Shown: positions 36,103 through 56,683, numbered from the stretch's first letter. The stretch is 64,000 nt of DNA from Halococcus hamelinensis 100A6 (GCF_000336675.1 NZ_AOMB01000043.1:34201-98200), one strand, 5' to 3'. Program-made: numbers and translations. The notes: a model not told the origin generated them from the letters alone.

Positions 36103-37506
36103 ATGCAGCGCCCGAACATTGTCTGGATAACCCTCGAAAGCACTCGGGCCGACCACACCACGATGAGCGGGTACTCGCGCGATACGACCCCGAACATCGA
36201 CCGGATCGCCCGCGGGCAGCGCGGGCGCGCGTTCGACAACTGCCACACCCACGGGATCTGGACGCTCGCCTCCAGCGCGTCGATACTCACCGGCACCGTC
36301 CCGACCCACCACGGTGCGGGGATGGCGAACGACGCGATCCCCGACGAGGTCGAGACGGTGCCCGAACGCCTCTCGGCGGCGGGCTATCACACCGCGTGTC
36401 TCTCGCCGAACTCCCACCTGAGTTCGGCGACGGAGCTCGACCGGGGCTTCGACGAGTTCGTCTGGCTGAGCGCCGACACCCTCCTCGACGCCGCGGGTCC
36501 CCGGATCCTGTTCAAGTACCTCCGGAACTGCCGGCGACACGGCCCCGGCTTCACCACCGACACCAGAAAGCACGGCACCGGCTTCATCATGAACGAGATG
36601 GCGAAGCGCCGGGTCGACGCCGCCGCCGAGGACGACGACCCGTTCTTCCTCTACGCCCACTACGGTGACCCCCACCACCCCTACCAGCCGCCGCGACGCT
36701 ACCTCGAACCCTACGCCGACGACTTCGAGATGAGCGTGGACGAGGCGCTCGAACTCGGCCAGTACCACCACGGCAACTTCCACCAGCTGATCGCCGACGG
36801 CTGCCCGCTCGACGACGACGAGTGGAACGCGCTCCACGCGCTCTACGACGCCGAGATAGCCCACACCGACGAGCTCGTTGGCGACCTCTTCGAGCACGTC
36901 ACGCGACTCGACAACACCGTCTTCGTCGTGACGGCCGACCACGGCGAGCTCTTCGGCGAGCAGGGCATGCTGGCCCACCTCGTCGTCACCGACGACGCCG
37001 TGACCCACGTCCCGCTGGTGACCCACGGCTTCGACGAACTCGTCGACCACGAGAGCGAGACCGTCCAGCACGCCGACGTGATGCGAACCCTCTGTGAGGT
37101 CGCGGGTGCCGGAGTCGAGGGCTTCCACGGGGTCGACCTCCGCGAGGAGACCCGCGATCACACCCTCACCCAGCGCGGCGCGAAGCGCACGCGAAAGAAC
37201 CTCGACCGGTTCGCGGAGCTCAACCCCGATTTCGACCCCACGCCCTACCACACCTCGACCCTGAGCGCGCTCCGCACGGACGAGTTCAAGTATCAGAGAA
37301 GCGACGACCGGGCCGAGCTCTTCGCCCTCCCCGACGAGTGCGAGGACGTCGACGACGACCACCCCGAGGTAGCGGCGGACCTCGACGACGAACTCGAGAC
37401 GATCCTCGAGACCGACGGCCAGCCGGCCTACAGCGGCGAACGCGAGGGGAAGTTCAGCGACGCGATGCGCGACCAGCTCGCGGATCTCGGCTACCTCGTG
37501 GACTAA
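36103..37506 (+). CDS. Sulfatase-family protein without the formylglycine motif
   Basis: 467 residues. The N-terminal NIVWITLESTRADHTTMSGY (metal Asp about 17) and FVVTADHGELFGEQG (metal Asp-His about 287) are those of the sulfatase branch. The activating Cys/Ser-x-Pro-x-Arg site is absent. The equivalent region reads WTLASSAS (53-60) with Thr54 as possible nucleophile, as in phosphoglycerol-transferase relatives. It may hydrolyse or transfer a phosphate or sulfate ester on the glycan. No signal peptide is seen. It is divergent from the membrane protein gene at 33916. Confidence 0.82.
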   Translation: MQRPNIVWITLESTRADHTTMSGYSRDTTPNIDRIARGQRGRAFDNCHTHGIWTLASSASILTGTVPTHHGAGMANDAIPDEVETVPERLSAAGYHTACLSPNSHLSSATELDRGFDEFVWLSADTLLDAAGPRILFKYLRNCRRHGPGFTTDTRKHGTGFIMNEMAKRRVDAAAEDDDPFFLYAHYGDPHHPYQPPRRYLEPYADDFEMSVDEALELGQYHHGNFHQLIADGCPLDDDEWNALHALYDAEIAHTDELVGDLFEHVTRLDNTVFVVTADHGELFGEQGMLAHLVVTDDAVTHVPLVTHGFDELVDHESETVQHADVMRTLCEVAGAGVEGFHGVDLREETRDHTLTQRGAKRTRKNLDRFAELNPDFDPTPYHTSTLSALRTDEFKYQRSDDRAELFALPDECEDVDDDHPEVAADLDDELETILETDGQPAYSGEREGKFSDAMRDQLADLGYLVD

Positions 37507-37512
37507 CGCTGC

Positions 37513-38688
37513 CTACGATTCGGGGTCGAGGTTCGCCGTGGCGGCGAGCGCGAGGCACATCCACGCCTGACTCCAGCGGATGTACGGCGTCTCGTCGTCC
37601 AGCAGGCGGCCGCGGCGGCGGTAGAAGTAGCCGTCCTCGTCGTAGAGGTTCTCGATCGACCACTCGATGACCGAACGGGCCGTCTCGCGACTCTCGGGTC
37701 GGCCGTCGGTGACGAACGTCACGACCGACTGGGCGGCGGCGTGGGCGTCGTAGGGTTTCGAGGTCTCGTGTTCGAACTTCGGCGCGCCGTCGGGTTCGAA
37801 GAGGTGCTCGCGGTAGAACTCGAGGCCGCGCTCGTAGCTCGCCTCCGCGCCCGCGACGTCGCCACCCGAATCGAGGTAGTGCCGGAGGGATTCGAGTACG
37901 AAGCCGGTGTGGAAGTTGTCGTGGCTGATGTGGGAGTCGGCGGCCGGCATCGAGTAGTGCCACGCACCGCTGTCCTCCTGGGCCGACTCGACGAACGTCA
38001 CGAGGGCGTCTGCACGCGCCATGAGTTCCTCGGACCCGTTCTCGGCCGCCACCATCGCGAACAGCCGGGCCGCGAGCGCGTTGACGTTTATCACCACGAA
38101 CTCGTCGTCGGTGGAGTAGGTGTAGGCGTCGAAGCCGTCGATCTCGACGGTGTTGATCTCGGTGCGGATGAACTCGCAGGCCCCCTCCGCGACCGTCAGC
38201 GAGCGTTCGTCGCCCGTGATCCGGTGGTGGCGCACGAACGCCTGGGCGGCGAACACCGTCACGACCACCGACGGCCAGTAGGCTGGGAGGTGGAACTTCC
38301 GGGCGTTCTGCCAGGGGAAGTTGTAGCCCCAGCACGGGCGGTCGAACCGGGTCGACTGGTACTCGGCGAGCCAGTCGAGCAGCCACTCGGCGCGGTCGAG
38401 GTACGTCCCGTCGTCGGTGGCCTCGTAGCGATGGAGGTTCGCGAGCGCGAACAGGGCCATCCCCTTCGGGTTTCGCTCCTTCGGGACCGACAGCGCCGGT
38501 CGGAGGTTGACCGGCGAGAGGTTCACGGTGTGCGTCCAGACCAGTCGCGTGAACCAGTTGTCGACGAGCGTGTCTGAGTGCGGGCTGTTGAGCCCGTCGT
38601 AGGGGTCCCAGCCGGCGTAGTCGCGGTCGTGTGCCCAGTCGAGCGCGCGGTCCGCGACCGCCGCCACGTCGGGGTCGGTCCGGTTCAT
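37513..38688 (-). CDS. Helical-barrel-like protein, paralogue of 42329-43552
   Basis: 391 residues without signal peptide. It is made of repeated helix hairpins rich in Trp, Tyr and His (DYAGWDPYDGLNSP, GMALFALANLHRYE, CWGYNFPWQNARKF, HISHDNFHTGFVLESL, YDAHAAAQSVVTF, WSQAWMCLALAAT), resembling alpha/alpha-toroid enzymes acting on polysaccharides. Several motifs recur in the gene at 42329. It is the fourth gene of the wecB-wecC operon (4-nt overlap upstream). Candidate activities are uronate epimerase, lyase or hydrolase, none of them proven. Confidence 0.7.
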   Translation of the reverse strand: MNRTDPDVAAVADRALDWAHDRDYAGWDPYDGLNSPHSDTLVDNWFTRLVWTHTVNLSPVNLRPALSVPKERNPKGMALFALANLHRYEATDDGTYLDRAEWLLDWLAEYQSTRFDRPCWGYNFPWQNARKFHLPAYWPSVVVTVFAAQAFVRHHRITGDERSLTVAEGACEFIRTEINTVEIDGFDAYTYSTDDEFVVINVNALAARLFAMVAAENGSEELMARADALVTFVESAQEDSGAWHYSMPAADSHISHDNFHTGFVLESLRHYLDSGGDVAGAEASYERGLEFYREHLFEPDGAPKFEHETSKPYDAHAAAQSVVTFVTDGRPESRETARSVIEWSIENLYDEDGYFYRRRGRLLDDETPYIRWSQAWMCLALAATANLDPES

Positions 38689-39782
38689 CGGCGACCACAA
38701 CACGAGTCTATCAGGTCGTTCGTGAGGTCGATGACCTCCTCGCGCACCGCGTGGGCGCGCTCGCGGTCGGGGTCGATGTCCGACTCGTCGAGCGACGCGA
38801 CGTGGTCGATGATCGCTTCGGGGTCGCGCGAGTGGAAGATCCGGCCGTCGGCGACGAGCTCCTGGTCGACCGAGAGCAGCGTGTTCGGGAAGAAGGAGAC
38901 GGCGGGTTTCTCCATGCAGGCGGCTTCGCGCGACATGGTGCCCGAGCCGGTGAGGACACAGCGGGCGTGCCAGGCGAGCTGGAGCCCGTTGACCGCGCCC
39001 TGCGGGACGAACACCTCGTCGTCGGGGTACGCCCCGGCGTGACCCTCGTCGCCGCGGCCCCGCGGGAGGTAGACGACGCCGATGTCGTGGTCGACGGCGG
39101 CCGCGAGGAGCTGGGGGACGATCGAGTCGGCGTCGACGTAGGCCGCCGTCAGCGCCTCCGGACGGAGCACGATGTACTCGCCCGACGCGAACGGGAGCCG
39201 GTCGGGGAAGTCGGGGTCGGGTTCGAAGCCCGCGACGTAGACGTCCTCCTTGTAGCCGTCGTAGGTGTGCACGGAGTCCGTGTCGGCCCCCCATCGGGTG
39301 AGTTCTTCGGTGGCGAACGCCCGGGGCACCACGTTGTGGGTCGCGGCGGCCTCGAAGCGGTTGTAGAGCTCCTCGACCCAGAGCCCGTCGATGTGCGCCG
39401 TGATGTCGTTGTCCGTGAAGTGTATCGAGGGGATCCCGCGGGCCTTCGAGGCGAGGATGCACATCGCGTTGCGCGAGGAGAGCGAGACGTCGCAGTCGGG
39501 GGCCTGGAGCGCGAGCTGGGCGGTCCGGAGCGGGATGCCGAACTTCCGGACGAGGGCGTTGTCGAAGTCACGGCCCACGACCCGGTGGTCGAAGCCGACC
39601 TCCTTCGCGAGCGAGACGGTCTCGGTCTTCTCGCGCACCGTGGTCGTCACCGAGACCCCGTCGAGCCCGCCGACGAGCGCGTCGAAGAAGAACGGGTGTG
39701 AGGGGCTCACGAGGTCGATCCACGCCCGGACGAGGTCGGTACGGGCGGTGGCTTCGGCCTCGGTTCGGGTGCGCCCGCTCAT
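38685..39782 (-). CDS. DUF354-family protein, glycosyltransferase-like
   Basis: 365 residues. The opening AWIDLVSPSHPFFFDALVGG is the DUF354 first-strand motif (D-x2-x-P-x-H). HFTDNDITAH, YDGYKEDVYVAGF and LTGSGTMSREAACM (the donor-binding Gly-Ser-Gly-Thr turn) follow as in GT-B enzymes of the MurG/UDP-GlcNAc epimerase fold. DUF354 genes commonly sit in archaeal and bacterial glycan clusters. It is coupled to wecC and to the next gene by 4-nt overlaps. Confidence 0.8.
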   Translation of the reverse strand: MSGRTRTEAEATARTDLVRAWIDLVSPSHPFFFDALVGGLDGVSVTTTVREKTETVSLAKEVGFDHRVVGRDFDNALVRKFGIPLRTAQLALQAPDCDVSLSSRNAMCILASKARGIPSIHFTDNDITAHIDGLWVEELYNRFEAAATHNVVPRAFATEELTRWGADTDSVHTYDGYKEDVYVAGFEPDPDFPDRLPFASGEYIVLRPEALTAAYVDADSIVPQLLAAAVDHDIGVVYLPRGRGDEGHAGAYPDDEVFVPQGAVNGLQLAWHARCVLTGSGTMSREAACMEKPAVSFFPNTLLSVDQELVADGRIFHSRDPEAIIDHVASLDESDIDPDRERAHAVREEVIDLTNDLIDSCCGRR

Positions 39783-41062
39783 AGTTCGACGACCCTCAAT
39801 CCGGCCGCCTCCCACTCGGCGGCATCGAGGAGGCCCTTCGTATCCACGACGACGTCGCCGGCGAGCCGGCTGGCGACGTCGGTCGGGTCGAGCGCTGCGT
39901 ACTCGTCGTGGTCGGTGGCGATGACGACGGCGTCGGCCCCCGCCAGTGCGTCGTCGAGCGGCGAGAGCGCGAAGCGCTGGTCGGTGACGTGCGGGTCGGT
40001 GAGCCTGACGTCGACCGACGGTTCGTCGGTGCCGTCGTCGACCCCGGGTGCGGTCGCCGCCCGCGCCCGCGTCTGAAGCACCTCCGCGAGGCGGAGGCCG
40101 GGGCTCTCGCGGGCGTCCGCGACGTTGCCCTTGTAGGCCACGCCGAGCACCGCGACCGTCGAGCCCGCGAGCGAGCCCACGCCCGCCGCCACGAGGTCGG
40201 TGACGTAGTCGGCCATCCCGTCGTTGATCGCCCGGGCGCGCTCGATCAGGTCGAGGCGCTCCGAGTGCTGGCCGAGGAACAGCGGGTCGATCGGGATGCA
40301 GTGCCCGCCGACGCCGGGCCCCGGCTGGTGGAGGTCCACCCGCGGGTGGTGGTTCGCGAGCGCGATCGCCTCGCGCGAATCGAGCCCGTAGTCCGCCGCC
40401 ACCATCGCGACCTCGTTGGCGAGCGCGATGTTCACGTCCCGATACGTGTTCTGGATGAGCTTGACGAACTCACAGAGGGTCGGGTCGGTCGTGGTACGGA
40501 GTTCGCCCTCGACGAACGAGCCGTAGAGTTCGGTCGTGCGCTCGACCGCCCGCTCGTCGACGCCGCCCACCGCGCGGTCGTTCCCACGGAGTTCGGCGAC
40601 CACGTTGCCCGGCAGCATCGTCTCGGGCGAGTACGCCAGCGAGAACGCGCCCACGGCGAGCCCCGAATCTTCGAGGATCGGGCCGACGACCTCGGTGGTG
40701 GTCCCCGGCGGCACGGTGGATTCGAGCACCACGGTGTCGTCTTCTCGGAGAACGCCAGCGACGGTTTCGGCGGCCGCCTCCACGTACGAGAGGTCCGCGC
40801 GCCCTCCGTCGAGCGGGGTCGGGACGCAGATCAGGTGGTAGTCGGCGGCGACCGCTTCCGAAGAGACCGAGAGCGAGCCATCGAGCGCGCGCTCGATGAA
40901 CGTATCGAGCCCGGGTTCGTCGACGGGGACGTCGCCGGCGGCGAGCCGGTCGAGCAGCTCGGCGTTCACGTCGTAGCCGGTGACGTCGTGGCCGGCGTCC
41001 GCGAGCATCGCGGCGGTCGGCAGCCCGATGTAGCCGAGGCCGTGGACACAGACCGAACTCAT
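39779..41062 (-). CDS. wecC: UDP-N-acetyl-D-mannosaminuronate dehydrogenase
   Basis: 427 residues. It oxidises UDP-ManNAc twice at C6 to UDP-ManNAcA with NAD. Rossmann GLGYIGLPTAAMLA (about 8-21), PTPLDGG, ESTVPPGTT, the hinge FVKLIQNTYRDVNIALANE, and the catalytic Cys in GGHCIPIDP (about 258). The context with wecB directly upstream (4-nt overlap) fixes the probable substrate. The longer open frame upstream belongs to another reading of wecB and is discarded. Confidence 0.88.
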   Translation of the reverse strand: MSSVCVHGLGYIGLPTAAMLADAGHDVTGYDVNAELLDRLAAGDVPVDEPGLDTFIERALDGSLSVSSEAVAADYHLICVPTPLDGGRADLSYVEAAAETVAGVLREDDTVVLESTVPPGTTTEVVGPILEDSGLAVGAFSLAYSPETMLPGNVVAELRGNDRAVGGVDERAVERTTELYGSFVEGELRTTTDPTLCEFVKLIQNTYRDVNIALANEVAMVAADYGLDSREAIALANHHPRVDLHQPGPGVGGHCIPIDPLFLGQHSERLDLIERARAINDGMADYVTDLVAAGVGSLAGSTVAVLGVAYKGNVADARESPGLRLAEVLQTRARAATAPGVDDGTDEPSVDVRLTDPHVTDQRFALSPLDDALAGADAVVIATDHDEYAALDPTDVASRLAGDVVVDTKGLLDAAEWEAAGLRVVEL

Positions 41063-42174
41063 CCCGAGACCCCCCCGACCGACGTCGCCGGTCCGACCCC
41101 GACGAGGTCGAGGATCCGGTCGGCGGCGCGGCCGTCGCCGAAGGGGTTCTCCCAGTCGGTGCCGGCGTCGAGCGCGTCGCGCGCGCCCGCCGCGATGGCG
41201 TCGGGGCCGACCCCGACGACGCGGTTCGCGCCGACGTCGACGGTCTCGGGGCGCTCGGTGTTGTCGCGCAGGGTGACACACGGCGTCCCGAGGATGCACG
41301 CCTCCTCCTGCACCCCGCCCGAGTCGGTGAAGACGAGCCGGGCGGTGCTTTCGAGCCGGAGGAAATCCAGGAAGTCCTGGGGTTCGACCGTCGTGATCGC
41401 AGACGGGAGGTCGATCTCGAACTCGTCGAGGCGCTCGCGCGCCCGTGGGTGAATGGGGTAGACGACGTCGAGTCCCGATTCGCTGGCGAACCCCGCCACG
41501 CCGTCGAGGAGGCTCGAAAACCGAGCCCGGTCGTCGACGTTCTCGGCGCGGTGGGCGGTCAGCAGACAGAACTCGTCGGCCGTGAGGTCGTTCTCGGCGA
41601 GCACCCGGCTCTTCTCGGCCGCGAGGTCGCGATAGCCGATGACCGAATCCACGATGGTGTTGCCGGTGACCTCGATCCGGTCGACGGGGACGCCCTCCTC
41701 GCGGAGGTAGCGTGCGGCCTGGTCGGTCGGGCAGAAGAGGTAGTCGGCGGCGTGGTCGGCGAGCACCCGGTTGACCTCCTCGGGCATCCCCCGGTCGAAG
41801 CTCCGGAGGCCGGCCTCGACGTGGCCGAGCACGCAGTCGAGCTTGCTCGCGGCGATCGAACCCGCGAGCACGGTGTTGGTGTCGCCCTGGACCAGCACGA
41901 CCTCGGGCTCCTCGTCGAGGAACACCGACTCGATCTCGCGGATCATCGCGCCGGTCTGGGCGCTGTGCGAACCGGACCCGACCGCGAGGTTGTGGTCGGG
42001 GGTCGGGAGTTCGAGCTGGTCGAAGAACACCGCATCGAGTTCCTCGGAGTAGTGCTGTCCGGTGTGGACCACGGAGTAACCGACCCCGCGCTCCTCGCAG
42101 GCGTCGATCACGGGCGCGAGCTTGATGATCTCCGGACGGGTACCGAGGACGATCGTCACGGCGGTATCGCTCAT
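41059..42174 (-). CDS. wecB: UDP-GlcNAc 2-epimerase (non-hydrolysing)
   Basis: 371 residues, GT-B-like fold, interconverting UDP-GlcNAc and UDP-ManNAc. Landmarks: VLGTRPEIIKLAPVI, VVHTGQHYSEELDAVFF, VQGDTNTVLAGS, HVEAGLRSFDRGMPEE, LTAHRAENV and TDSGGVQEEACILGTPCVTLR. All are in family order. First gene of a four-gene operon (wecB, wecC, DUF354, helical-barrel-like protein) with 4-nt overlaps at each junction. Confidence 0.9.
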   Translation of the reverse strand: MSDTAVTIVLGTRPEIIKLAPVIDACEERGVGYSVVHTGQHYSEELDAVFFDQLELPTPDHNLAVGSGSHSAQTGAMIREIESVFLDEEPEVVLVQGDTNTVLAGSIAASKLDCVLGHVEAGLRSFDRGMPEEVNRVLADHAADYLFCPTDQAARYLREEGVPVDRIEVTGNTIVDSVIGYRDLAAEKSRVLAENDLTADEFCLLTAHRAENVDDRARFSSLLDGVAGFASESGLDVVYPIHPRARERLDEFEIDLPSAITTVEPQDFLDFLRLESTARLVFTDSGGVQEEACILGTPCVTLRDNTERPETVDVGANRVVGVGPDAIAAGARDALDAGTDWENPFGDGRAADRILDLVGVGPATSVGGVSG

Positions 42175-42328
42175 CGCCGAACGCCCTCCCTTCCCGCCGT
42201 CGACAGTCGATAGTGTGTGAACTGAGTCATAGGTGTCGTATCGGGGACGCACCGCCACTGCAGACCTCGCCGCGAACCGTAGAACCCGGCATCAAGGGCA
42301 TCATGCGGTCCCTTCATCGGCCCGCTTA

Positions 42329-43552
42329 TCAAACCTGTCGAAACCGGTCGACGGTGTCACGCCGGTCGAGGTAGGTGGCGACCGCGTACGACATCCACGC
42401 CTCACACCACCGCATCAGCGTGACCCGCTTCGTATACCAGCGTTCCTGCCGGTAGAAAAACCGGCCGTCGCCGACGTAGAGCGCCCCGAGCACCCAGCCG
42501 ATGACGCGCTCGGCCAGCTCGAACTCGCCCGCGAGGCTGAAGACGATGATCCCCTGGGCCGCGGCGTGGATGTCGCGGGGGTAGGCGCTCGACTCGTCCC
42601 AGTTCGGCGCGCCGTTCGACTCGAAGAGCTCGTCGCGATAGAACGCGAGCGCGTCGTCGAGAACGTCGGAATACCGGTCCGAACCGGTGAGTTCGGCGTG
42701 CCGGAGGAGGGATTCGATGACGAAACCGTTGTGGTGGCTGTCCATCGAGAGGTGGGAGGCCGAGGGCGGGTCGCGGTACATCCAACCCCCTTCCGGGCGC
42801 TGGCGCGAGACGACGTAGTCGAGGAGCTTCTCGCCGCGCTCGCGGTGGCCCTCGTCGGGGAACCGGTCGTCGAGTTCGAGCAGGGTGGCCCCGCCGAGCG
42901 CGACCGCGTTGAGGGTGAAGTGGTCCGACGACCACGTCGGGACGTACTTCATCCGGGCTCCCTCCTCGATCTCCTCGTACTCCAGGTCCTCGTCGATGAA
43001 GTCGGCGACGGAGCGAACGACCGCCGCGTAGTCCGTCTCGCCGTCGTCGAGCCCGGCGTCGTGGGCGGCCAGCAGCGCCCGCACCGCATAGGAGGTCGAG
43101 ACCATGTCGGGATACTCGGGCAATCCCAGGATGTCGAGGTGCTGGATCTCGTGGCGATGCGCCCCGCAAAAGCCCGCGTAGCCCGGCGTCCGATGCTCGA
43201 CGAGCCACTCCGCGAGGTCGCGGGCCTCGCGTTCGTAGTCCGGTTCCGCGCTCGACCCCTCGCCGAGAACCCGTCCGGCGGTGAGGTTCGCCATCGTGAA
43301 CAGCGCGGTGCCCTTGTAGTTCCGGCGCTGTTCGACCAGAAAGAGGGGCCGGACGTTGACCGGCGCGCGCTTGATGGTCTCTTGAACCGCGATGTTGAGC
43401 CACTTGTTCTCGACCGGGACGGCCTGCAACAGGCGGCTGCTCATGCCGTCGCCGTAGTCCCAGCCGGTGTAGTCGCGCTCGCGCGCGTACCGAAGCGTCT
43501 CGCCGAGAACCCGCCCCGTGACACCCACTCGGGGCTCGCTCGCATCACTCAT
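42329..43552 (-). CDS. Helical-barrel-like protein, paralogue of 37513-38688
   Basis: 407 residues, no signal peptide. Motifs shared with the other copy: RDYTGWDYGDGMSS, RPLFLVEQRRNYKGTALFTMA, HLSMDSHHNGFVIESLL, YPRDIHAAAQGIIVF and LMRWCEAWMSYA, at matching places. The predicted fold is an alpha/alpha barrel. It lies 154 nt upstream of wecB on the same strand and so brackets that operon with its paralogue at the other end. The enzymatic role is unknown and sugar-polymer binding is inferred. Confidence 0.7.
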   Translation of the reverse strand: MSDASEPRVGVTGRVLGETLRYARERDYTGWDYGDGMSSRLLQAVPVENKWLNIAVQETIKRAPVNVRPLFLVEQRRNYKGTALFTMANLTAGRVLGEGSSAEPDYEREARDLAEWLVEHRTPGYAGFCGAHRHEIQHLDILGLPEYPDMVSTSYAVRALLAAHDAGLDDGETDYAAVVRSVADFIDEDLEYEEIEEGARMKYVPTWSSDHFTLNAVALGGATLLELDDRFPDEGHRERGEKLLDYVVSRQRPEGGWMYRDPPSASHLSMDSHHNGFVIESLLRHAELTGSDRYSDVLDDALAFYRDELFESNGAPNWDESSAYPRDIHAAAQGIIVFSLAGEFELAERVIGWVLGALYVGDGRFFYRQERWYTKRVTLMRWCEAWMSYAVATYLDRRDTVDRFRQV

Positions 43553-45048: not shown

Positions 45049-45229
45049 GGATATGCGCTTGTCTGCCTCATTGTCGTACGGTTCGGGACCCACACGCGAT
45101 TTCCGATGGACCGCGCGCGATGGTCGTCGATCCGGATCTCACTCCAGAAGGGCTTTGTTATCCTCATCATACCCGCCGCCGAAGGCCGGGTCGAGTTCGA
45201 AACGAGACGGAAAAATCGAAGCGGACGAT

Positions 45230-46687: not shown

Positions 46688-46951
46688 CTGTGTTGAATCC
46701 GCCAGTTCGTCGGGCGTATCGAATGATACCCCGTAGGCCTGTGGTATATCACTGACGGCTCGGACCCGACCTGTGTTCAGTTCCCTCTCGGAAGTAATTT
46801 TTCCGCACAGCCTTCTTCTCCAGCGTCGGCGGGCAGTACCGCCCCGATCCGGGGATCGTCGCCGGGTCGAGGCCGAACCGACGACGACCTTTTCACGAGA
46901 TTCGACCGACGTGTTTAGAAGCATCGGGGTCGTCGGTCCAGCCAACGGTAC

Positions 46952-48061
46952 ATGAACCACCTCTTTTTTACGAACACCCCCGCTCACGTTCATCTCTACA
47001 AACACGCCATCAACGCCCTCGAATCGCGCGGTCACGACGTCCTAGTGCTCGGCCGTGATTACGGCGTCACGAAACCCCTCCTCGATTACTACGACCTGCC
47101 CTACCGGCTCTACGGCCGGCTGGCGACCACGAAGTGGTCACTGGTGCGCCAGCTTCCCGCCCACTACTGGTCGATACTCCGGCAGACGCGGCGATACGAC
47201 CCGGACACGGTCTTCGGGATGGGAGCCTACGCGGCCCACGCCGGCGCGCTCTCGCGGACGCCCGTGACGCTGATCTTGGACTCCGAACCCACCTCGCTCG
47301 ACCACGCCGTCTCGCGGCCCTTCGCCGACACCATTCTCACGCCCTACGCCTTCGGGAAGGACCTCGGCCCGAACCACTACCGCTTTCGCGGGTTCAAGGA
47401 GTCGGCCTACCTCCACCCGGACGTCTTCACGCCGCGCGACGACATCCGCGAGAAGCTCGGCGTCGGGCCGGACGAACGCTACGTGATCTGCCGGCTCAAC
47501 GCCTTCGGCTCCCACCACGACGTGAGCCAGTCGGGGATCGGACCGAGGAAACGCCGCCAGCTGGTCGAACGCCTCGCGCCCCACGCGACGGTGTTCGTCT
47601 CTGACGAGGGCGGCAAGATGTGCTTCGACGACGTCGACGCACGGCCGTTCGACCTCCACCCGGGGCTGCTCCACGACGCCCTCGCCGAGGCCTCGCTCCT
47701 CGTCGCCGACACCCAGACGATGGTGACCGAGGCCGCCCTGCTCGGGACCCCCGCGATCCGGTCGAACTCCTTCGTCGGCGAGTCGGACATGGGCAACTTC
47801 ATCGAACTCGAACGCGAGGGGCTGATCTACAACATCGCCTCGTTCGACGCCGCGCTCGACCGGGCGTGCTCGCTGCTCGACGACGATTCGGTCGCGGCGC
47901 GGTGGGCGGAGAAGCGCGACGCCTACATGGCCGACATGGTGAACCTCACCGACGTCATCGTCGACCTCGCCACCAACCCCGACGGGCCGTCGGCGGTCGA
48001 GGGGCTCTCGCGCGACGACGCACCGGCCTACCGCCGTGGGACGCCGACGGTAGAACACTGA
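46952..48061 (+). CDS. DUF354-family protein, glycosyltransferase-like
   Basis: 369 residues. The DUF354 start FFTNTPAHVHLYKHAINAL (P-A-H-V-H) is intact. RYDPDTVFGMGAYAA, LDSEPTSLDH and FVSDEGGKM, then LVADTQTMVTEAALLGTPAI (donor-site region) follow. It is a second DUF354 protein beside that at 38685, and is more canonical. Transcription could start near 46944 from a TTTAGAA element at 46914-46920. It is divergent from the surface-protein genes. Confidence 0.82.
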   Translation: MNHLFFTNTPAHVHLYKHAINALESRGHDVLVLGRDYGVTKPLLDYYDLPYRLYGRLATTKWSLVRQLPAHYWSILRQTRRYDPDTVFGMGAYAAHAGALSRTPVTLILDSEPTSLDHAVSRPFADTILTPYAFGKDLGPNHYRFRGFKESAYLHPDVFTPRDDIREKLGVGPDERYVICRLNAFGSHHDVSQSGIGPRKRRQLVERLAPHATVFVSDEGGKMCFDDVDARPFDLHPGLLHDALAEASLLVADTQTMVTEAALLGTPAIRSNSFVGESDMGNFIELEREGLIYNIASFDAALDRACSLLDDDSVAARWAEKRDAYMADMVNLTDVIVDLATNPDGPSAVEGLSRDDAPAYRRGTPTVEH

Positions 48062-49246: not shown

Positions 49247-50137
49247 TCAGTCGATGAGTTCGGGCGTGGCGTCGCCCGGTGTCGTGTCGTCGGAGGACCC
49301 GTTCACACGGTCGAGATACGCACCCGGCGAACCGACCCACGCGTCCATCTCCAGGGCGCGCTCGACGAGGCGCTCGTAGAGGTCGCGATAGCCCGGGAAG
49401 TCGGGACCGACATACCGGGGATGCCAGAGCACGGTCATCACGGCGTCGTTCGCGGCCGCCTCTTCGAGGAGTCGCTCGCACTCCCGCCACGCCGCATCGA
49501 AGCTCTCGGTTCCCTCGACGAGCGCGACCTCCATGACCGTCAGCGGGAAGACGGCGAACTCGTCGTCGAAGGGGTGGAGGAGGTCGTAGCCGTGTTCGAA
49601 GCCGTAGGTGGCGCTCGACCCGAGCGAGCTGTCGTACTCCAGCCCGAGCGCACGGTAGTGGGCCCAGGTGTCGGGGCCGCGACGCAGGAAGTGTTGTCGG
49701 CCGCCCCGCACCGGATGGCCGACGACGCCCTCGATCCGCTCCTTTTCGGCCCGGAGCCGCTCGCGGTCGTCGGCGGTGTCGTAGGAGCCGTGGAGGCCGA
49801 CCTCCCAGCCGCCGTCGTCGAGCGCGTCGATGACGTTCGCCATCCGCGGGGCCTCGACGTCGTACCGGCCGAGGTGTTCGAGCCAGTAGCGGGGTCGGAA
49901 CCACTTCGAGGGATGGTGTTCCCCGAGTCCCGGCTCCGAGAGGAAGTAGAACGCCGACCGAACGCCAAAACGTTCCTCGATCCCCATCAGCGTCTCGAAC
50001 TGCCAGTAGGGGTCGTTGCCGAGTCGGAGCGCGTCGAGACGACCCGGGTCGCGTTCGCGGATCGCGTCGTAGACGGCCTGGTAGGTCTTGTACGGCCGGT
50101 CGACGTCGTGGGTGAGACAGAGCGCGAACTCAGCCAT
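49247..50137 (-). CDS. Polysaccharide deacetylase-like protein (CE4/NodB fold)
   Basis: 296 residues. The NodB motifs are recognisable: LTHDVDRPYK (metal Asp pair near residues 9-11), GLHGSYDT (metal His, about 113-120), RGGRQHFLRRGPD (about 143-155) and TVLWHPRYV near the end. No signal peptide, so it acts in the cytoplasm on sugar intermediates. It overlaps wbpI by 8 nt and precedes the FemX-like gene. It could remove an acetyl group from an amino sugar before a different acyl group is added (inference). Confidence 0.82.
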   Translation of the reverse strand: MAEFALCLTHDVDRPYKTYQAVYDAIRERDPGRLDALRLGNDPYWQFETLMGIEERFGVRSAFYFLSEPGLGEHHPSKWFRPRYWLEHLGRYDVEAPRMANVIDALDDGGWEVGLHGSYDTADDRERLRAEKERIEGVVGHPVRGGRQHFLRRGPDTWAHYRALGLEYDSSLGSSATYGFEHGYDLLHPFDDEFAVFPLTVMEVALVEGTESFDAAWRECERLLEEAAANDAVMTVLWHPRYVGPDFPGYRDLYERLVERALEMDAWVGSPGAYLDRVNGSSDDTTPGDATPELID

Positions 50138-51215
50138 CCGACCCGTCCGTCGAACCCGCGTCGCGCTCGATCAGGTCGACCATCCGCTCGGCGGCGTCGC
50201 CGTCGCCGTAGAGCTCGGGCTTTTCGGGCAACGACACCGGCGCGGTGAGTTCGCGGGTGATGGCCTCGCGGTCGGCCCCGACGAGGACGTTCCAGCCCGC
50301 GTCGATGGTCTCGACCCACTCGGTCTCCTCCCGGAGGGTGACACAGTGGGTATCGAGGAAGAACGCCTCCTTCTGGACGCCGCCGGAGTCGGTGGCGACG
50401 CGCTCGGCCCCGTCGAGCAGCCGGACGAAGTCGAGATAGCCCACGGGGTCGATCAGGGTCATCGACGACTCGACCCGCTCGCGCAGGCCGTACTCGTCGA
50501 GACACTCCATCGTCCGCGGGTGGATCGGGAAGACGACCTCCCGGTCGAGTTCGCAGAGCGCACCCATGATCGCCGCGAGGCGGTCGGGGTCGTCGGTGTT
50601 GCCCGCGCGGTGGACGGTCGCGAGGACGTACTCGCCGTCGGCGAGGTCGTTCGCCGCGAGCACCGTAGAGTGTTCGGCGGCGCGCGAACGCGCCCAGCGG
50701 ATGGCGTCGTACATCACGTCGCCCGTGAGGTGGACGTTCCCGACCCCCTCCTTCCGGAGGTTCTCGACGCCGCGGCGGGTCGGCGCGAACAGCAGGTCCG
50801 AGACGTGGTCGGTGAGCTCGCGGTTGACCTCCTCGGGCATCTCGCGGTTGTAGCTCCGCAGGCCCGCCTCGACGTGGGCCAGCCGGGCGTCGGTCTTGGC
50901 GGTCACGACCGCGCTCGCGAGCGTGGAGTTGGTGTCGCCGTAGACCACGACCGCGTCGGGCTCCTCGCGCTCGACGAGTTCGCCGAACCGGGTCACGATC
51001 CGGCCGGTCTGCTCGCCTTGAGTGCCCGAGCCGACCCCGAGGTTGTACTCCGGGGTCGGGATGTCGAGCTCCTCGAAGAAGACGTCCGACATCGACTCGG
51101 AGTAGTGCTGGCCGGTGTGGACCAGCACCTCCTCGTGGCGTTCGCGGAGCACGCGCGAGACCGGGAAGGCCTTCACGAACTGCGGGCGCGCGCCCACGAC
51201 CGAGACGACCTTCAT
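50130..51215 (-). CDS. wbpI: UDP-2,3-diacetamido-glucuronate 2-epimerase (WbpI type)
   Basis: 361 residues. It differs from WecB in the subgroup motifs VGARPQFVKAFPVSR (start), YGDTNSTLASAVV, HVEAGLRSYNREMPEE and LTDHVSDLLFAPT, and LTGDVMYDA, which mark the WbpI class. DSGGVQKEAFFL completes it. Predicted final step: UDP-GlcNAc3NAcA to UDP-ManNAc3NAcA. The other four enzymes of that route lie just upstream in the same operon. Confidence 0.85.
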   Translation of the reverse strand: MKVVSVVGARPQFVKAFPVSRVLRERHEEVLVHTGQHYSESMSDVFFEELDIPTPEYNLGVGSGTQGEQTGRIVTRFGELVEREEPDAVVVYGDTNSTLASAVVTAKTDARLAHVEAGLRSYNREMPEEVNRELTDHVSDLLFAPTRRGVENLRKEGVGNVHLTGDVMYDAIRWARSRAAEHSTVLAANDLADGEYVLATVHRAGNTDDPDRLAAIMGALCELDREVVFPIHPRTMECLDEYGLRERVESSMTLIDPVGYLDFVRLLDGAERVATDSGGVQKEAFFLDTHCVTLREETEWVETIDAGWNVLVGADREAITRELTAPVSLPEKPELYGDGDAAERMVDLIERDAGSTDGSDG

Positions 51216-52261
51216 CGTTCGACCTCGGTTCGCCGCGGGTCGTCGTCGCCGAACCGGTCCTCGTCCACCACTTCGAGCCCCGCGTTGGCCTGGAGGTCGT
51301 AGGCCATCGCCACCGAGACGGCGATGCCGCCGACGACGAGCAGGAGCATCGAGAGCCCGCCCCGGAGGAAGAGCTCGCCGGGACCGAACGCGCTCGCGAC
51401 CGTCACGAGGAGACCGAGCAGCCCGGTGAGCCCGCTCACGACGCCGAAGAAGTAGAGCAGGACCAGCGGGTGGAAGCTGTAGATGACGTACTGTAACACC
51501 AGCCGCCGGACGAAGTTGCGCGCGAGCAGCGTCGAGAGCTTCGGGATGAAGGTCGAGTAGCGGATACCGCTCTGTTCGTCGCCGTAGACCGCGGGATGGG
51601 AGACGTCCGCAACCCGGAAGTCGTGTACGTTGAGGGTCGTGAGCATATCGTTCAGGAAACCGTAATCGTCGTAGAGCGAATCGAGGTCGATCCGCGAGAG
51701 CGCCTCGTAGGAGACGGCGGTGAAGCCGTTCTGGGGGTCGCTCATCCGCCAGTAGCCGCTGGATATCTTGGTGAGATACGTGAGCAGGGAGTTGCCGAAG
51801 AAGCGCCAGTTCGACATCTCCGAGCGGTCGCGGTGGAGGAGCCGGGTTCCCTTCGCGTAGTCGGCCCAGCCGTCGGCGACGGGTTCGATGATCCGCGCCA
51901 GCATGTCGGGGTTCATCTGGCCGTCGGCGTCCATCACCGCGATGACGTCGAGGCCGTCCTCGAGGGCGTGGCGATAGCCCGTCTTGACCGCAGCGCCGCG
52001 TCCCCGATTCGTGTCGTGGCGGATCGCCTCGACGACGGTGTCGGCGTACGCGCCGCCGTCGGTGAGCGGCATGCCGCCGGCGCGTTCGCGGTTGGCGCGC
52101 TCGGCGTGGCGCTGGATCTCCGCCCAGGTCCCATCGCCCGAGCAGTCGTCGACGGCGTACACCCGGTCGACGAACCCGGGCATCGTCTCGATGACGCGAC
52201 CCACGAACGCCTCCTCGTTGTGGGCGGGCACCACGACGCCGACTGTCTTCCCGTTATACAT
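51212..52261 (-). CDS. Membrane GT2 glycosyltransferase (polyprenyl-phosphate sugar synthase type)
   Basis: 349 residues. Catalytic domain VGVVVPAHNEEAFVGRVI, VYAVDDCSGDGT, VMDADGQMNPD (metal DxD) and NGFTAVSYEAL; then two C-terminal membrane helices (about 262-285 and 290-322). This layout is that of dolichol-phosphate-sugar synthases, which load a sugar on a lipid carrier. It sits in the wbp operon between wbpA and wbpI, overlapping both by 8 and 4 nt. The sugar is unknown. Confidence 0.85.
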   Translation of the reverse strand: MYNGKTVGVVVPAHNEEAFVGRVIETMPGFVDRVYAVDDCSGDGTWAEIQRHAERANRERAGGMPLTDGGAYADTVVEAIRHDTNRGRGAAVKTGYRHALEDGLDVIAVMDADGQMNPDMLARIIEPVADGWADYAKGTRLLHRDRSEMSNWRFFGNSLLTYLTKISSGYWRMSDPQNGFTAVSYEALSRIDLDSLYDDYGFLNDMLTTLNVHDFRVADVSHPAVYGDEQSGIRYSTFIPKLSTLLARNFVRRLVLQYVIYSFHPLVLLYFFGVVSGLTGLLGLLVTVASAFGPGELFLRGGLSMLLLVVGGIAVSVAMAYDLQANAGLEVVDEDRFGDDDPRRTEVER

Positions 52262-53618
52262 CGAGTCCGCTCCCTATCGTATACACTCTGTGGGGTGTTC
52301 GGGATAAATCAAGCGTTCCGCGGCCGTCGATGACGACGATCCCCGACTCGAAGCCGTGCCAGTCGACCGCGTCGAACGCTTCGTGGGGGGTCACCATCAC
52401 CGCCGCGTCGAGGTCGCAGTGGGGGAGGTCCTCGATCCCGGTCGGGGTGGCGTCGAAACGCGAGAAATCGTCGAGCAACGGGTCGACGCAGAACACCTCG
52501 GCTCCGGCCTCGCCGAGGCCGTCGACGATCGGCTCGGCCGGCGTCTTCGCGAGTTCGTTCACCCCGGGCCGGTAGGTCAGCCCGAGCACGGCGACGCGCG
52601 CGCCGTCGAGGCTCCGGCCCTCGGCCTCGAACTCCTCTTCGAGTTTCCCGACCACGAACCCCGGCATCGAGTCGTTGACGGCGCGGGCAGTCCGCAGGAG
52701 CGGCGCGTCCTCGGTCCGGCCGTGTGCGAGGAAGTACGGGTAGTAGGGGATGCAGTGGCCGCCGACGCCCGGACCGGGGTCGTGTATCTCACAGAAGGGC
52801 TGTGTGTTCGCGGTCGCGATGGCCTCGGCCACGTCGATCCCGAGGTCGTCGGTGAACCGCGCGAGTTCGTTCGCCAGCGCGATGTTCACGTCGCGATAGA
52901 CACCCTCGAATAGTTTGACTGCTTCGGCCGTCGCCGCGTCGGAGACCGCGAGCACGCCCTTCGCGTTGATCGCCTCGTATATCGCGGTCGCCGCGCGCGT
53001 GCTCGCGTCGTCGACCCCGCCGACGACCTTCGGGTAGGCCCCCCGGATGTCTTCGAGGGCGCGCCCGCTCGACGTGCGCTCGGGACAGAACGCGAGGCCG
53101 AACTCGCCCATCGAGAGGCCCGTCTCGCGTTCGAGCAGGGGGCCCACCACCTCGCGACAGGTCTTCGGCGGCACCGTACACTCCACCACCACGAGGTCGC
53201 CCGCCGCGAGGCCGGTCGCGACGTCCTCGACGACTGATTCGAGGATCGAGAGGTCGGGCGCGTTCCCGGCGTCGAGCTTCGTCGGGACGATGAGGACGTG
53301 GACGTCCGCCATCGCCGCGGCCTCCTGGTTGGTGGTCGCCCGGAGCGCGCCGTCGGCGGCCAGATCCGCCACGAGGTCGTCGAGCCCCGGTTCGCCCGTG
53401 ACGTGACACTCGCCGCGGTTCACCGAGTCGACCACGGCGTCGTCGACGTCCGCGCCGACGACGGCCCCGGAGGTCTCGGCGTAGACCGCCGCGAGCGGCA
53501 GCCCCATCTTCCCCAGCCCGTAGACCGCGACCGGGAGGTCGCCGTTCTCGAACGCCGTCCGACGGCGCTCGACGGACGCATCGTCGCCGTAGGCGGCGGG
53601 CGAGCCGGACGAGCTCAT
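52254..53618 (-). CDS. wbpA: UDP-N-acetylglucosamine 6-dehydrogenase (WbpA type)
   Basis: 454 residues. VYGLGKMGLPLAAVYAE (Rossmann), IVPTKLDAGNAPDLS, ECTVPPKTCREVV, FCPERTSSGRALED, the hinge LFEGVYRDVNIALANEL and the catalytic Cys in GGHCIPYYPYF (about 287). Compared with wecC the loop after the Cys is YYPYFLAHG rather than IDPLFLG. Predicted to oxidise UDP-GlcNAc to UDP-GlcNAcA, the first step toward the diacetamido-uronate. Start ATG overlaps the wbpB stop by 4 nt. Confidence 0.85.
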   Translation of the reverse strand: MSSSGSPAAYGDDASVERRRTAFENGDLPVAVYGLGKMGLPLAAVYAETSGAVVGADVDDAVVDSVNRGECHVTGEPGLDDLVADLAADGALRATTNQEAAAMADVHVLIVPTKLDAGNAPDLSILESVVEDVATGLAAGDLVVVECTVPPKTCREVVGPLLERETGLSMGEFGLAFCPERTSSGRALEDIRGAYPKVVGGVDDASTRAATAIYEAINAKGVLAVSDAATAEAVKLFEGVYRDVNIALANELARFTDDLGIDVAEAIATANTQPFCEIHDPGPGVGGHCIPYYPYFLAHGRTEDAPLLRTARAVNDSMPGFVVGKLEEEFEAEGRSLDGARVAVLGLTYRPGVNELAKTPAEPIVDGLGEAGAEVFCVDPLLDDFSRFDATPTGIEDLPHCDLDAAVMVTPHEAFDAVDWHGFESGIVVIDGRGTLDLSRTPHRVYTIGSGLDV

Positions 53619-54619
53619 CGGGGGTCGGCCTCTATCGGGTTCGGGTCGGCGAGGCGGTCGATCCGTTTGGCGATCCGGAGGGCGCGAAGCCCGTCCGCAG
53701 CGGAGACCACCGGTTCGCGCCCGGTCCGGGCGCACTCGACGAACGAGGCGACCTCCTTTTTGAGCGGTTCGCCGTCGCCGACCACCGGCTGTTCGATGAT
53801 CCCCTCGTTGCTGTCGATCCCGCGCCGCCACACCCCCGACCGGAACTCCGTGTACGGCGCGTCGTCGGGTTCCGGCGGGGACTGTCGGTGGACGTCGATC
53901 GAGCGGTGGATGTAGTCCACGACTATCCAGCAGTCCCGGGCGGTGATCGTGAGCTCGCGGATCTTTCGCTGGGTCACCCGGCTCGCCGTCAGGCTCCCGA
54001 CCGTCCCCCCGGAGAAGCCGAGTTGGGCGTCGACGTACCGCCCATCCTCGGTGCTGACCGCGTTGACGAGGTCTATCTCGTCGTCGACGAGCGAACAGAC
54101 CACGTCGATGTCGTGGATCATGAGGTCCATCACTGCGCCGTCCTTGATGTCGCGCTCGCGGGGCGCACCGAGCCGACGGGCGTCGAACGCGAGGATCTCC
54201 TCGTCGGCGAGCACGCTCGCGACCGCCTCGATGGCGGGGTTGAACCGCTCGATGTGACCCACCTGGAGCGTCACGCCGCGTTCGTCGGCGAGGTCGCAGA
54301 GCTCGCGGCCGTTCTCGGGGTCGGCCACGAACGGCTTCTCGACGAGGACGGCGACGTCCGCCTCGATGCACTCGCGTGCGAGGTCGTAGTGGTAGGCGGT
54401 CGGCACCGCGATCGAGACCACGTCGACCGTCGCGAGGAGGTCGGCCCGCGCCCTCGCGTCGGTGTCGTGTCGCGTGGCGACCTCGTTCGCACGTTTCTCG
54501 TCGGTGTCCGCGACGCCGACGAGTTCGACGTCGGGGAGTTCGGCGTAGACTCGCGCGTGGTTCTGGCCCATGCTCCCGACGCCGATGACGCCGGCCCGTG
54601 TGGTCGCCGCGGCGCTCAC
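53615..54619 (-). CDS. wbpB: Gfo/Idh/MocA-family oxidoreductase (WbpB type)
   Basis: 334 residues, GTG start (MSAAATTRAGVIG). NAD-binding GVGSMGQNHARVYAE (about 11-25), VSIAVPTAYHYDLA, the substrate-site VEKPFVADP (about 92-100, conserved Glu-Lys-Pro) and GHIERFNPAIEA. Predicted to oxidise C3 of UDP-GlcNAcA to the 3-keto sugar. A GTGA overlap joins it to wbpE. Confidence 0.85.
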   Translation of the reverse strand: MSAAATTRAGVIGVGSMGQNHARVYAELPDVELVGVADTDEKRANEVATRHDTDARARADLLATVDVVSIAVPTAYHYDLARECIEADVAVLVEKPFVADPENGRELCDLADERGVTLQVGHIERFNPAIEAVASVLADEEILAFDARRLGAPRERDIKDGAVMDLMIHDIDVVCSLVDDEIDLVNAVSTEDGRYVDAQLGFSGGTVGSLTASRVTQRKIRELTITARDCWIVVDYIHRSIDVHRQSPPEPDDAPYTEFRSGVWRRGIDSNEGIIEQPVVGDGEPLKKEVASFVECARTGREPVVSAADGLRALRIAKRIDRLADPNPIEADPR

Positions 54620-55701
54620 GCCTCGACCCCCGCCGCGGCGACCGCGGCGACGACCTCGTCGATGTCGGCCGACGAGAGGGCGGGGTGGACCGGCAACGAG
54701 AGCACCTCCCGCGCCGCTCGTTCGGCGACCGGCACGTCGGGGTCGACGTCGTCGTAGACGGGCTGTTCGTGTATCGGAACGGGGTAGTAGACGCCGGTGC
54801 CGACCCCCCTGGCTTCGAGGTGGTCGGCGAGCGCGTCGCGGTCGTCGGCGCGGATGGTGTACTGGTGATAGACGTGCCGTCGTCCCGTGGGTTCGACCGG
54901 GGTGTCGACCCAGTCGGGGAGCTCCTCGGTGAGTCGGGCGGCGTTCGCGCGCCGTGCCTCGTTGTTCTCGGGGAGGTCCCCGATCTGCACCCGTCCGATG
55001 GCGGCCAGCAGACTCGTCATCCGGTAGTTCTGGCCGAGCCTCGTGTGTTCGTAGGCCGCGCCGTCGGCGGTCCGGCCGTGGTTGATGAAGCTCCGTGCGC
55101 GGGCGGCCACGTCGGGGTCGTCGGTGAGCACCATGCCGCCCTCGCCGGTGGTCATGTTCTTCGTCGGGTAGAAGGAGAAACACGCGACGTCGCCGAAGGT
55201 GCCGACGCGCTCGTCGTCGATCGCCGCCCCGTGGGCCTGGGCGGCGTCCTCGATCACGAGGAGGTCGTGCTCGTCGGCGATCGCCCGCAAGCGGGGCATG
55301 TCCGCGGGGAGGCCGAACAGGTGGACCGGGAGGATCGCGTCGACGTCCTGCTCGCGGACGACCCGCTCGACGGCGTCGGGGTCGAGGTTGAACGTCTCGG
55401 GGTCGATGTCGGCGAAGACGGGTTCGGCACCTGCGAGCCGTATCGAGTTGGCGCTCGCGATCATCGAGAACGGCGTCGTGACCACGCGGTCGCCGGGGCC
55501 GAGGCCGAGCGCCTCGACCGCGGTGTGGAGGGCGGTCGTGCCGTTGGTGGTCGCGATGCCGTGTGTTGCGCCGCAGAAGTCCGCAAACTCGTCTTCGAAC
55601 GCGCGGACCTCGGGGCCGTCGGCGAGCTGACCGGAGTCGATCACCTCGTCGATACGTGCTTTCTCGCGGTCGCCGAGCTGTGGGTTGGCTATCGGAATCA
55701 T
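54616..55701 (-). CDS. wbpE: DegT/DnrJ/EryC1 sugar aminotransferase (WbpE type)
   Basis: 361 residues, PLP-dependent. ANPQLGDREKARID start, TNGTTALHTAVEAL (phosphate pocket), TPFSMIASANSI, IEDAAQAHGA (PLP Asp) and the Schiff-base Lys in YPTKNMTTGEGGM (about 180-192). It should transfer an amino group to C3 of the 3-keto-UDP sugar. Overlaps wbpD by 4 nt upstream and wbpB by 4 nt downstream. Confidence 0.88.
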   Translation of the reverse strand: MIPIANPQLGDREKARIDEVIDSGQLADGPEVRAFEDEFADFCGATHGIATTNGTTALHTAVEALGLGPGDRVVTTPFSMIASANSIRLAGAEPVFADIDPETFNLDPDAVERVVREQDVDAILPVHLFGLPADMPRLRAIADEHDLLVIEDAAQAHGAAIDDERVGTFGDVACFSFYPTKNMTTGEGGMVLTDDPDVAARARSFINHGRTADGAAYEHTRLGQNYRMTSLLAAIGRVQIGDLPENNEARRANAARLTEELPDWVDTPVEPTGRRHVYHQYTIRADDRDALADHLEARGVGTGVYYPVPIHEQPVYDDVDPDVPVAERAAREVLSLPVHPALSSADIDEVVAAVAAAGVEA

Positions 55702-56288
55702 ATGGCGTTCTCACCGGAAAGGGAGTCGGGGAGCGGTTCGTGGCGTGCGGGGACGCCGAGCGCGAGGGTCTCGGGCGGGACGTCGCGGGTGACGACCGCG
55801 CCGGCGGCGACGAACGACCCCGCCCCGACGGAGATGCCGGGCAACAGCGTGGCGTTCGCGCCGACCGAGACGCCGTCGTCGAGCGTCGGGCCGGCGAGGT
55901 CGGCCTCGCGGCGGACGGGATGGGGGTCGTTCGTGAGAACGGCTCGCGGGCCGACGAACACCTGGGACCCGACCGTCGTGTTCGTCGGGAGGTAGACGCC
56001 GGTCTGGAGGCTGACGTGCGAGCCGATCGTGGTCGTGCCGTCGATCACCGCGTCGGTGCCCACCAGGACGTCGTCGCCGATACGGGTGTCCTCGCGAACG
56101 AGGGCGTTGTGGCCCGTGGTGAAGCCGTCGCCGACCTCGACGTCGGCGTAGACGATGGTGCCGGCGCGAACCGTGGCGTCGTCGCCGAGTCTGGCCGGCG
56201 GGGCGTCGGGGTCGTGTGAGTAGCCGACGGTCGCGCCGTCGTCGATGGTCGCGTTCGCTCCGGTTCGGGCGCGTGTTTCTCCCGTCAC
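55698..56288 (-). CDS. wbpD: Hexapeptide-repeat N-acetyltransferase (WbpD type)
   Basis: 196 residues. A left-handed beta helix made of V/I-G-D-x-x-x repeats from about residue 25 to 170, with ALVREDTRIGDDVLVG and VTRDVPPETLALGVPA at the end. It would acetylate the new 3-amino group from acetyl-CoA, giving the 2,3-diacetamido sugar acid. First gene of the eight-gene minus-strand operon ending at 48140. Confidence 0.85.
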   Translation of the reverse strand: MTGETRARTGANATIDDGATVGYSHDPDAPPARLGDDATVRAGTIVYADVEVGDGFTTGHNALVREDTRIGDDVLVGTDAVIDGTTTIGSHVSLQTGVYLPTNTTVGSQVFVGPRAVLTNDPHPVRREADLAGPTLDDGVSVGANATLLPGISVGAGSFVAAGAVVTRDVPPETLALGVPARHEPLPDSLSGENAI

Positions 56289-56683
56289 GGCCGTACACCT
56301 CGGTCGCGGGTCGTGCGAACCGGGTCGGCGATCCGTGCGGGGACACGTGGCTCCACCGGGACGAGTACCGTCGTTGGAGGGGGGGAGTGGTCGGTCATCG
56401 GTGGGCGGTTTCGGTCAGGACGATCGAGTGACTGTCACTGCGTGTGGTCTCGTCCGGGTAGAGTCCGTTCTCACATATGTGTTTTCCCATCCGATAGCCA
56501 GCACCGACCGGTTCGGGACACGAGGCGGCGCGGGCCCGCCGGGACCCGACAACGGCGGTCCGTTTCGGCGGGCCGTTCCCGTCGGATCGGTAGATTCACG
56601 GCCGGCGACCGGATTAGGGCGCACAACCGACGCATGGCCACGGACCACACCCCGACCGACCCCGCCGGCGGACGGACCGACGG
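56289..56683. promoter_or_regulatory. Divergent promoter region between wbpD and the phosphatase-like gene
   Basis: 395 nt with no convincing gene. It holds a 10-bp palindrome CACATATGTG (56472-56481), a possible operator or TATA site roughly midway between the two starts. The GC-rich flanks are open in several frames without protein likeness. Confidence 0.4.

Follow-up and report, generated by a model that had tools for sequence, protein, structure and literature searches.

Two helical-barrel proteins at the ends of a Halococcus wecB-wecC operon are candidate C5-epimerases of wall aminouronic residues

N-acetyl-D-mannosaminuronic acid (D-ManNAcA) and N-acetyl-L-gulosaminuronic acid (L-GulNAcA) differ only at C5. 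Which enzyme, then, gives the halococcal wall its L-gulo acid? L-gulosaminuronic (2-amino-2-deoxy-guluronic) acid is on record there (Reistad 1974, cited in PMC3210612), at 110 nmol/mg in Halococcus morrhuae (PMC4187196), and a literature search found no enzyme that forms it. The question is raised by a 64,000-nucleotide stretch of the Halococcus hamelinensis 100A6 genome (NZ_AOMB01000043.1:34201-98200; hereafter the window, with positions counted from its first letter), for which a prediction made earlier from the DNA alone (the original prediction) had rightly named this wall sugar and proposed two barrel-like paralogues, here genes A and B, on either side of the genes for uridine diphosphate (UDP)-ManNAcA. 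As judged by sequence comparison, A and B represent a new and unnamed family with a coherent candidate role; as enzymes for the C5 inversion step to L-gulosaminuronic acid they are good candidates. The operon consists of:

37513..38688, minus strand (ATG at 38688, end at 37513): gene A, a 391-residue single-domain alpha/alpha-barrel protein of the A subfamily, predicted cytoplasmic
38685..39782, minus strand: DUF354 (type 1), a predicted GT-B glycosyltransferase (80 bits against a cut-off of 22)
39779..41059, minus strand: wecC-like nucleotide-sugar dehydrogenase, probably converting UDP-N-acetylmannosamine (UDP-ManNAc) to UDP-ManNAcA (TIGR03026, 378 bits)
41059..42177, minus strand: wecB, a non-hydrolysing UDP-N-acetylglucosamine (UDP-GlcNAc) 2-epimerase (TIGR00236, 382 bits against a cut-off of 210)
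42329..43552, minus strand: gene B, a 407-residue single-domain alpha/alpha-barrel protein of the B subfamily, predicted cytoplasmic

These genes are closely packed and transcribed in the order B, wecB, wecC, DUF354, A, the DUF354 stop codon overlapping the start of gene A. Family names come from Pfam and NCBIfam profile searches with curated cut-offs, which place wecB securely, recognise DUF354 and assign the dehydrogenase at subfamily level; the wecC identity is only probable because the dehydrogenase scores below the cut-offs of the UDP-ManNAc-dehydrogenase equivalogs. A and B do flank wecB-wecC, with a DUF354 gene between wecC and A that the original prediction left unmentioned. That they are paralogues at the two ends of the UDP-ManNAcA genes is borne out: they are homologous over their full length (32% identity, 162 bits, E 2e-50, residues 11-382 of A aligned by BLASTP), and seven further genomes of Halococcus keep the order B-wecB-wecC-DUF354-A, while in an eighth a contig end falls inside wecB. 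Protein identity to the window is about 70-85% in the six more distant of these seven; Halococcus thailandensis (L033, contig identical to G236) falls in the window's genus group. A and B are the only copies of the family in the H. hamelinensis genome, and both are under purifying selection (ratio of nonsynonymous to synonymous substitution rates about 0.09-0.42 for A and 0.09-0.20 for B). As first proposed, neither has a hydrophobic N-terminus or signal peptide (19-residue Kyte-Doolittle means in this region peak at 0.17 and 0.29).

AlphaFold2, supplied with 60-sequence alignments, models both proteins as single-domain alpha/alpha barrels (pLDDT 95.1 for A and 95.2 for B, pTM 0.94), in keeping with the helical barrel originally proposed. 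Foldseek places cellobiose 2-epimerases first among PDB structures (TM-score about 0.6; E about 3e-9 for A and 3e-8 for B), followed by GH76, GH88, lyase (5noa) and AGE structures. Twenty residues are invariant over the 60 sequences, which come from archaea and bacteria; 17 of them lie in the loops or N-termini leading into the six inner helices (49% expected, p 0.0009), and the opposite face has none. The 11 conserved polar residues (D31, R63, N73, Q127, Y191, Y245, D257, H260, D314, H316 and R371, A numbering) are all found on this rim. With a barrel fold and a conserved polar face, the original prediction survives both of the checks it had set for itself. Going by topology, we infer that the eleven line a single pocket.

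The same matches could be read differently. A and B might be glycoside hydrolases or polysaccharide lyases with a trimming or proof-reading role on aminouronic glycans, exerted at the membrane or inside the cytoplasm, like AlgL in alginate synthesis: family members have weak Pfam matches to GH76, GH88, GH127 and pectic lyase, these folds recur in the Foldseek results, and conserved Tyr, His and Arg would fit a lyase as well. However, the adjacent catalytic Asp-Asp pair of GH76 is missing from the invariant columns, which rules out membership of GH76 despite the similarity in fold and profile to GH76 and GH88. In addition, an exported polymer would be out of reach of proteins that lack a signal peptide, and the close pairing with biosynthetic glycosyltransferases (see below) suggests assembly rather than degradation. 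We consider such a trimming role unlikely. It is rather unlikely, too, that A and B are AGE- or AglQ-like isomerases or epimerases that act at C2, C3 or C4, or on the free or nucleotide-bound sugar before transfer. Cellobiose 2-epimerase and AGE (PF07221) are indeed the nearest folds, sharing the barrel (hhalign probability 95.8% for A3 against haloarchaeal AGE proteins), and an isomerase role has been proposed for the soluble Haloferax volcanii protein AglQ, which is required for a uronic-acid-containing glycan (PMC3827465). Yet the catalytic His-x-x-Glu of AGE (HLHLMEA motif) aligns with T144-A150 of A, where hydrophobic or small residues stand in the family and no His or Glu is conserved; membership of AGE is ruled out by this absence, and WecB and WbpI already supply C2 epimerisation.

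The family is widespread. Searched with a two-sequence profile, 120 of 392 haloarchaeal genomes encode it; matches to a 28-sequence profile come from haloarchaea, Planctomycetota, Gemmatimonadota, Zixiibacteriota, Omnitrophota, sulfate reducers, Pseudomonadota and others. In a maximum-likelihood tree, archaeal A-type (100/99) and B-type (100/100) proteins form separate groups with bacterial proteins in between; by this topology, A and B are ancient subfamilies that were brought or kept together in one cluster, and a recent tandem duplication is ruled out. Rim residues also differ: A-type and bacterial proteins have N34, R48, W120, T261 and mostly Y122 and H256 in common, whereas the B-type residues at the differing positions are S38, N53, G130, N275, H132 and M270 (B numbering). 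This suggests that the two subfamilies differ in specificity. The pair was originally treated as having one function, whereas the subfamilies are old and have unlike rims. Certain genomes carry three copies of the family (L176 (G069), G178, G257 and G272), within about 15 kb where positions are listed, and on the Halomarina halobia plasmid unnamed2 (L051, 10001-11567) A and B matches overlap or abut, a possible fusion or frameshift.

What links these proteins to aminouronic acids is their neighbourhood. Recurrent neighbours in haloarchaea are UDP-GlcNAc 2-epimerases (wecB or wbpI), wecC, wbpA/B/E/D, X49250 and DUF354, and a DUF354 glycosyltransferase is the commonest neighbour of family members. 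The window carries both sets, wecBC with its DUF354 gene and a wbpD/E/B/A-GT2-wbpI-X49250 operon with a second DUF354 gene at 46952:

46952..48061, plus strand: second DUF354-type glycosyltransferase (type b), the subtype that accompanies wbpI/X49250 genes
49247..50137, minus strand: X49250, weakly similar to VimE, a UDP-diacetamido-glucuronate deacetylase (50.5 bits against a cut-off of 440), often adjoining wbpI and B
50130..51215, minus strand: wbpI-like UDP-sugar 2-epimerase
51212..52261, minus strand: GT2 glycosyltransferase inside the wbp-like operon
52254..56414, minus strand: wbpA-, wbpB-, wbpE- and wbpD-like genes, a probable pathway to the UDP form of 2,3-diacetamido-2,3-dideoxy-D-glucuronic acid (UDP-GlcNAc3NAcA), which WbpI would convert to its D-manno counterpart (UDP-ManNAc3NAcA)

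A DUF354 gene lies inside 40 of 48 archaeal and 18 of 22 bacterial family loci, as against 0 of 39 aglB control loci. Its subtype follows the sugar pathway (WecBC versus WbpABDEI): type 1 is present in 7/7 wecB/C loci and 0/33 wbpI/X49250 loci, of which 30/33 have type b, counts that include many close Haloferax relatives. A strict rule by which A goes with wec and B with wbp is ruled out since B also occurs with wecBC (L084, L062). Across haloarchaea, a WecB-type protein (E <= 1e-40) is encoded in 119 of 120 genomes with the family and in 115 of 272 lacking it (Fisher p 7e-33), a genome-level figure that is inflated by relatedness; by genus the co-occurrence is 38/38 versus 25/48 (p 7e-8), and it is not independent of phylogeny. 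Neighbourhood and genome-wide co-occurrence thus tie the family to the synthesis of D-manno aminouronic acids and to DUF354 glycosyltransferases. This proximity might also mean that the barrels catalyse nothing themselves and serve the glycosyltransferases by binding carbohydrate or as a scaffold, given that in 27 of 49 archaeal barrel-DUF354 pairs the nearest DUF354 gene is no more than 0.5 kb away and that the link is also seen in bacteria. Nevertheless, twenty residues that never vary between archaeal and bacterial members, among them His, Asp, Tyr and Arg along a single rim, look catalytic, making a purely structural role very improbable. In several bacterial phyla (L091, L100, L058, L049 and others) a module recurs with DUF354, asparagine-synthase-like, barrel, methyltransferase-like, large oxidoreductase-like and hexapeptide transferase genes; apart from DUF354 these names are provisional, given from sequence appearance.

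We tentatively favour, at slightly less than an even chance, the reading that A and B are cytoplasmic tailoring enzymes that would C5-epimerise D-mannosaminuronic residues after transfer by DUF354 and before export. We are led to it because ManNAcA and GulNAcA differ at C5, because the wall holds the L-gulo acid, and because Agl32 gives an archaeal precedent. In such a pathway, WecB and WecC would make UDP-ManNAcA and the WbpA-B-D-E-I-like set UDP-ManNAc3NAcA, a pathway-matched DUF354 glycosyltransferase would attach the aminouronic residue to a lipid-linked or growing chain, and A or B would invert C5 of the attached residue before it is exported. Arg and other polar residues may bind and neutralise the carboxylate, one of H260, H316, Y191 and Y245 may take the C5 proton, and a second group would give a proton back from the other face to yield L-gulo residues. 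A and B probably act on different residues or neighbours, given their differing rims. It is conceivable, and we propose this with more reserve, that the whole DUF354-paired barrel family consists of dedicated C5-epimerases (ManNAcA to L-GulNAcA, ManNAc3NAcA to L-GulNAc3NAcA), with one enzyme per aminouronic pathway of the sulfated wall polysaccharide in the Halococcus cluster. The genes, the fold, the one-sided polar conservation and the genomic linkage are established; C5-epimerisation before export is the best single explanation for them, in which we infer the substrate, the point of action and the C5 chemistry.

A number of points weigh against this reading, besides the phylogenetic dependence of the WecB co-occurrence. 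No curated Pfam or NCBIfam family scores above its cut-off for A or B; below threshold, gene A matches GH127, C5-epim_C (PF06662; 18.9 versus 23.3 bits) and GH88 (17.9 versus 26.6 bits) in Pfam, and gene B matches neither C5-epim_C nor GH88. The alpha/alpha barrel is common to GH76, GH88, polysaccharide lyases and 2-epimerases, and a predicted fold of this kind does not alone decide between epimerase, lyase and hydrolase. No wecB/wbpI match is present in the 22 bacterial loci, so at least the bacterial members may have different substrates. For gulosaminuronic acid there is a measured value from one Halococcus, while in another it was not determined (PMC4187196). Haloferax denitrificans (L087) has a wbpDEBAI-X49250-B cluster, and its published exopolysaccharide contains, plus galactose, the D-gluco acid GlcA2,3NAc (2,3-diacetamido-glucuronic acid) as sole uronic acid (PMC3191746); because Haloferax gibbonsii has the same cluster and a neutral exopolysaccharide (PMC3191746), the cluster may make a polymer other than those reported. 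Finally, the aligned active-site regions of Agl32 hold few His, Glu or Tyr according to its authors (PMC13308652), whereas His, Tyr, Asp and Arg are invariant in A and B. Of the C5-epimerase originally proposed, the link to D-manno aminouronic synthesis is therefore retained, while the activity stays conjectural, the fold being shared and sequence membership in a proven C5-epimerase family not found.

Other genes in the window may bear on the wall. Next to gene B, and kept in other Halococcus, are genes for two surface proteins of the PGF-CTERM type that weakly resemble DUF7282 (43651-45093 and 45230-47035, both minus strand). The halococcal wall is heavily sulfated. Three proteins of the alkaline-phosphatase superfamily are encoded in the wall-type cluster (32275-33855, minus strand, Phosphodiest; 36103-37506, plus strand, Sulfatase; 56618-58297, plus strand, Phosphodiest), one of them next to gene A:

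36103..37506, plus strand: sulfatase-fold protein whose gene converges with gene A; the parallel with VNG1056C/VNG1057C makes it a candidate glycan sulfotransferase

These two analogues are alkaline-phosphatase-superfamily proteins that act as glycan sulfotransferases in Halobacterium salinarum (PMC11980604). A PF13480 acetyltransferase/FemAB-like gene (48140-49165, minus strand), of a kind that recurs near the barrel family, adjoins the wbp-like operon; our guess is that it could be a glycyl or acyl transferase, because glycine is part of the N-glycyl-glucosaminyl bridges of halococcal walls (PMC4187196).

For the L-gulosaminuronic acid question there are now two named genes with a fold and candidate catalytic residues, together with a glycosyltransferase partner that is conserved, and the question is therefore directly testable. 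If true, our proposal would add a family of aminouronic C5-epimerases and provide functions for DUF354 subtypes in about a third of the sampled haloarchaeal genomes and in diverse bacteria.

How do A and B compare with known systems? GlcE, whose helical catalytic domain (C5-epim_C, PF06662) gene A weakly resembles, has beta-hairpin and beta-sandwich domains that are absent from the single helical domains of the A and B models, and it is not among the best 50 Foldseek folds for either; membership is ruled out by the PF06662 cut-off and by these missing domains. DSE membership is likewise ruled out, neither protein having a Pfam match to heparinase II/III (PF07940). In the whole genome there is no GlcE-type C5-epimerase above cut-off (gene A being the sole weak match) and no heparinase II/III/DSE-type enzyme, beta-helix C5-epimerases having been left out of this search; these negatives count in favour of the C5-epimerase reading of A and B. 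AglQ, compared by its published description, is likewise a soluble haloarchaeal barrel-type protein; it differs in belonging to the aglB pathway, and its residue pattern is absent from every locus examined. Neither Agl32 nor AglQ was identified in the aglB neighbourhoods of about 20 genomes, including by the pattern of AglQ mutagenesis positions and by PF07221 matches near aglB. By its published description, Agl32 is encoded in aglB clusters and has glucuronic acid as its substrate, whereas A and B occur in 0 of 39 aglB loci and an STT3-like WWDxG motif is found near one family locus only (L045). The likeness is nonetheless close: Agl32, the D-glucuronyl C5-epimerase of Halobacterium salinarum N-glycosylation, is also haloarchaeal, has a predicted single alpha-helical domain with cellobiose 2-epimerase and AGE as best PDB matches, and modifies its glycan while this is lipid-linked, ahead of export (PMC13308652), the stage at which we propose that A and B would act.

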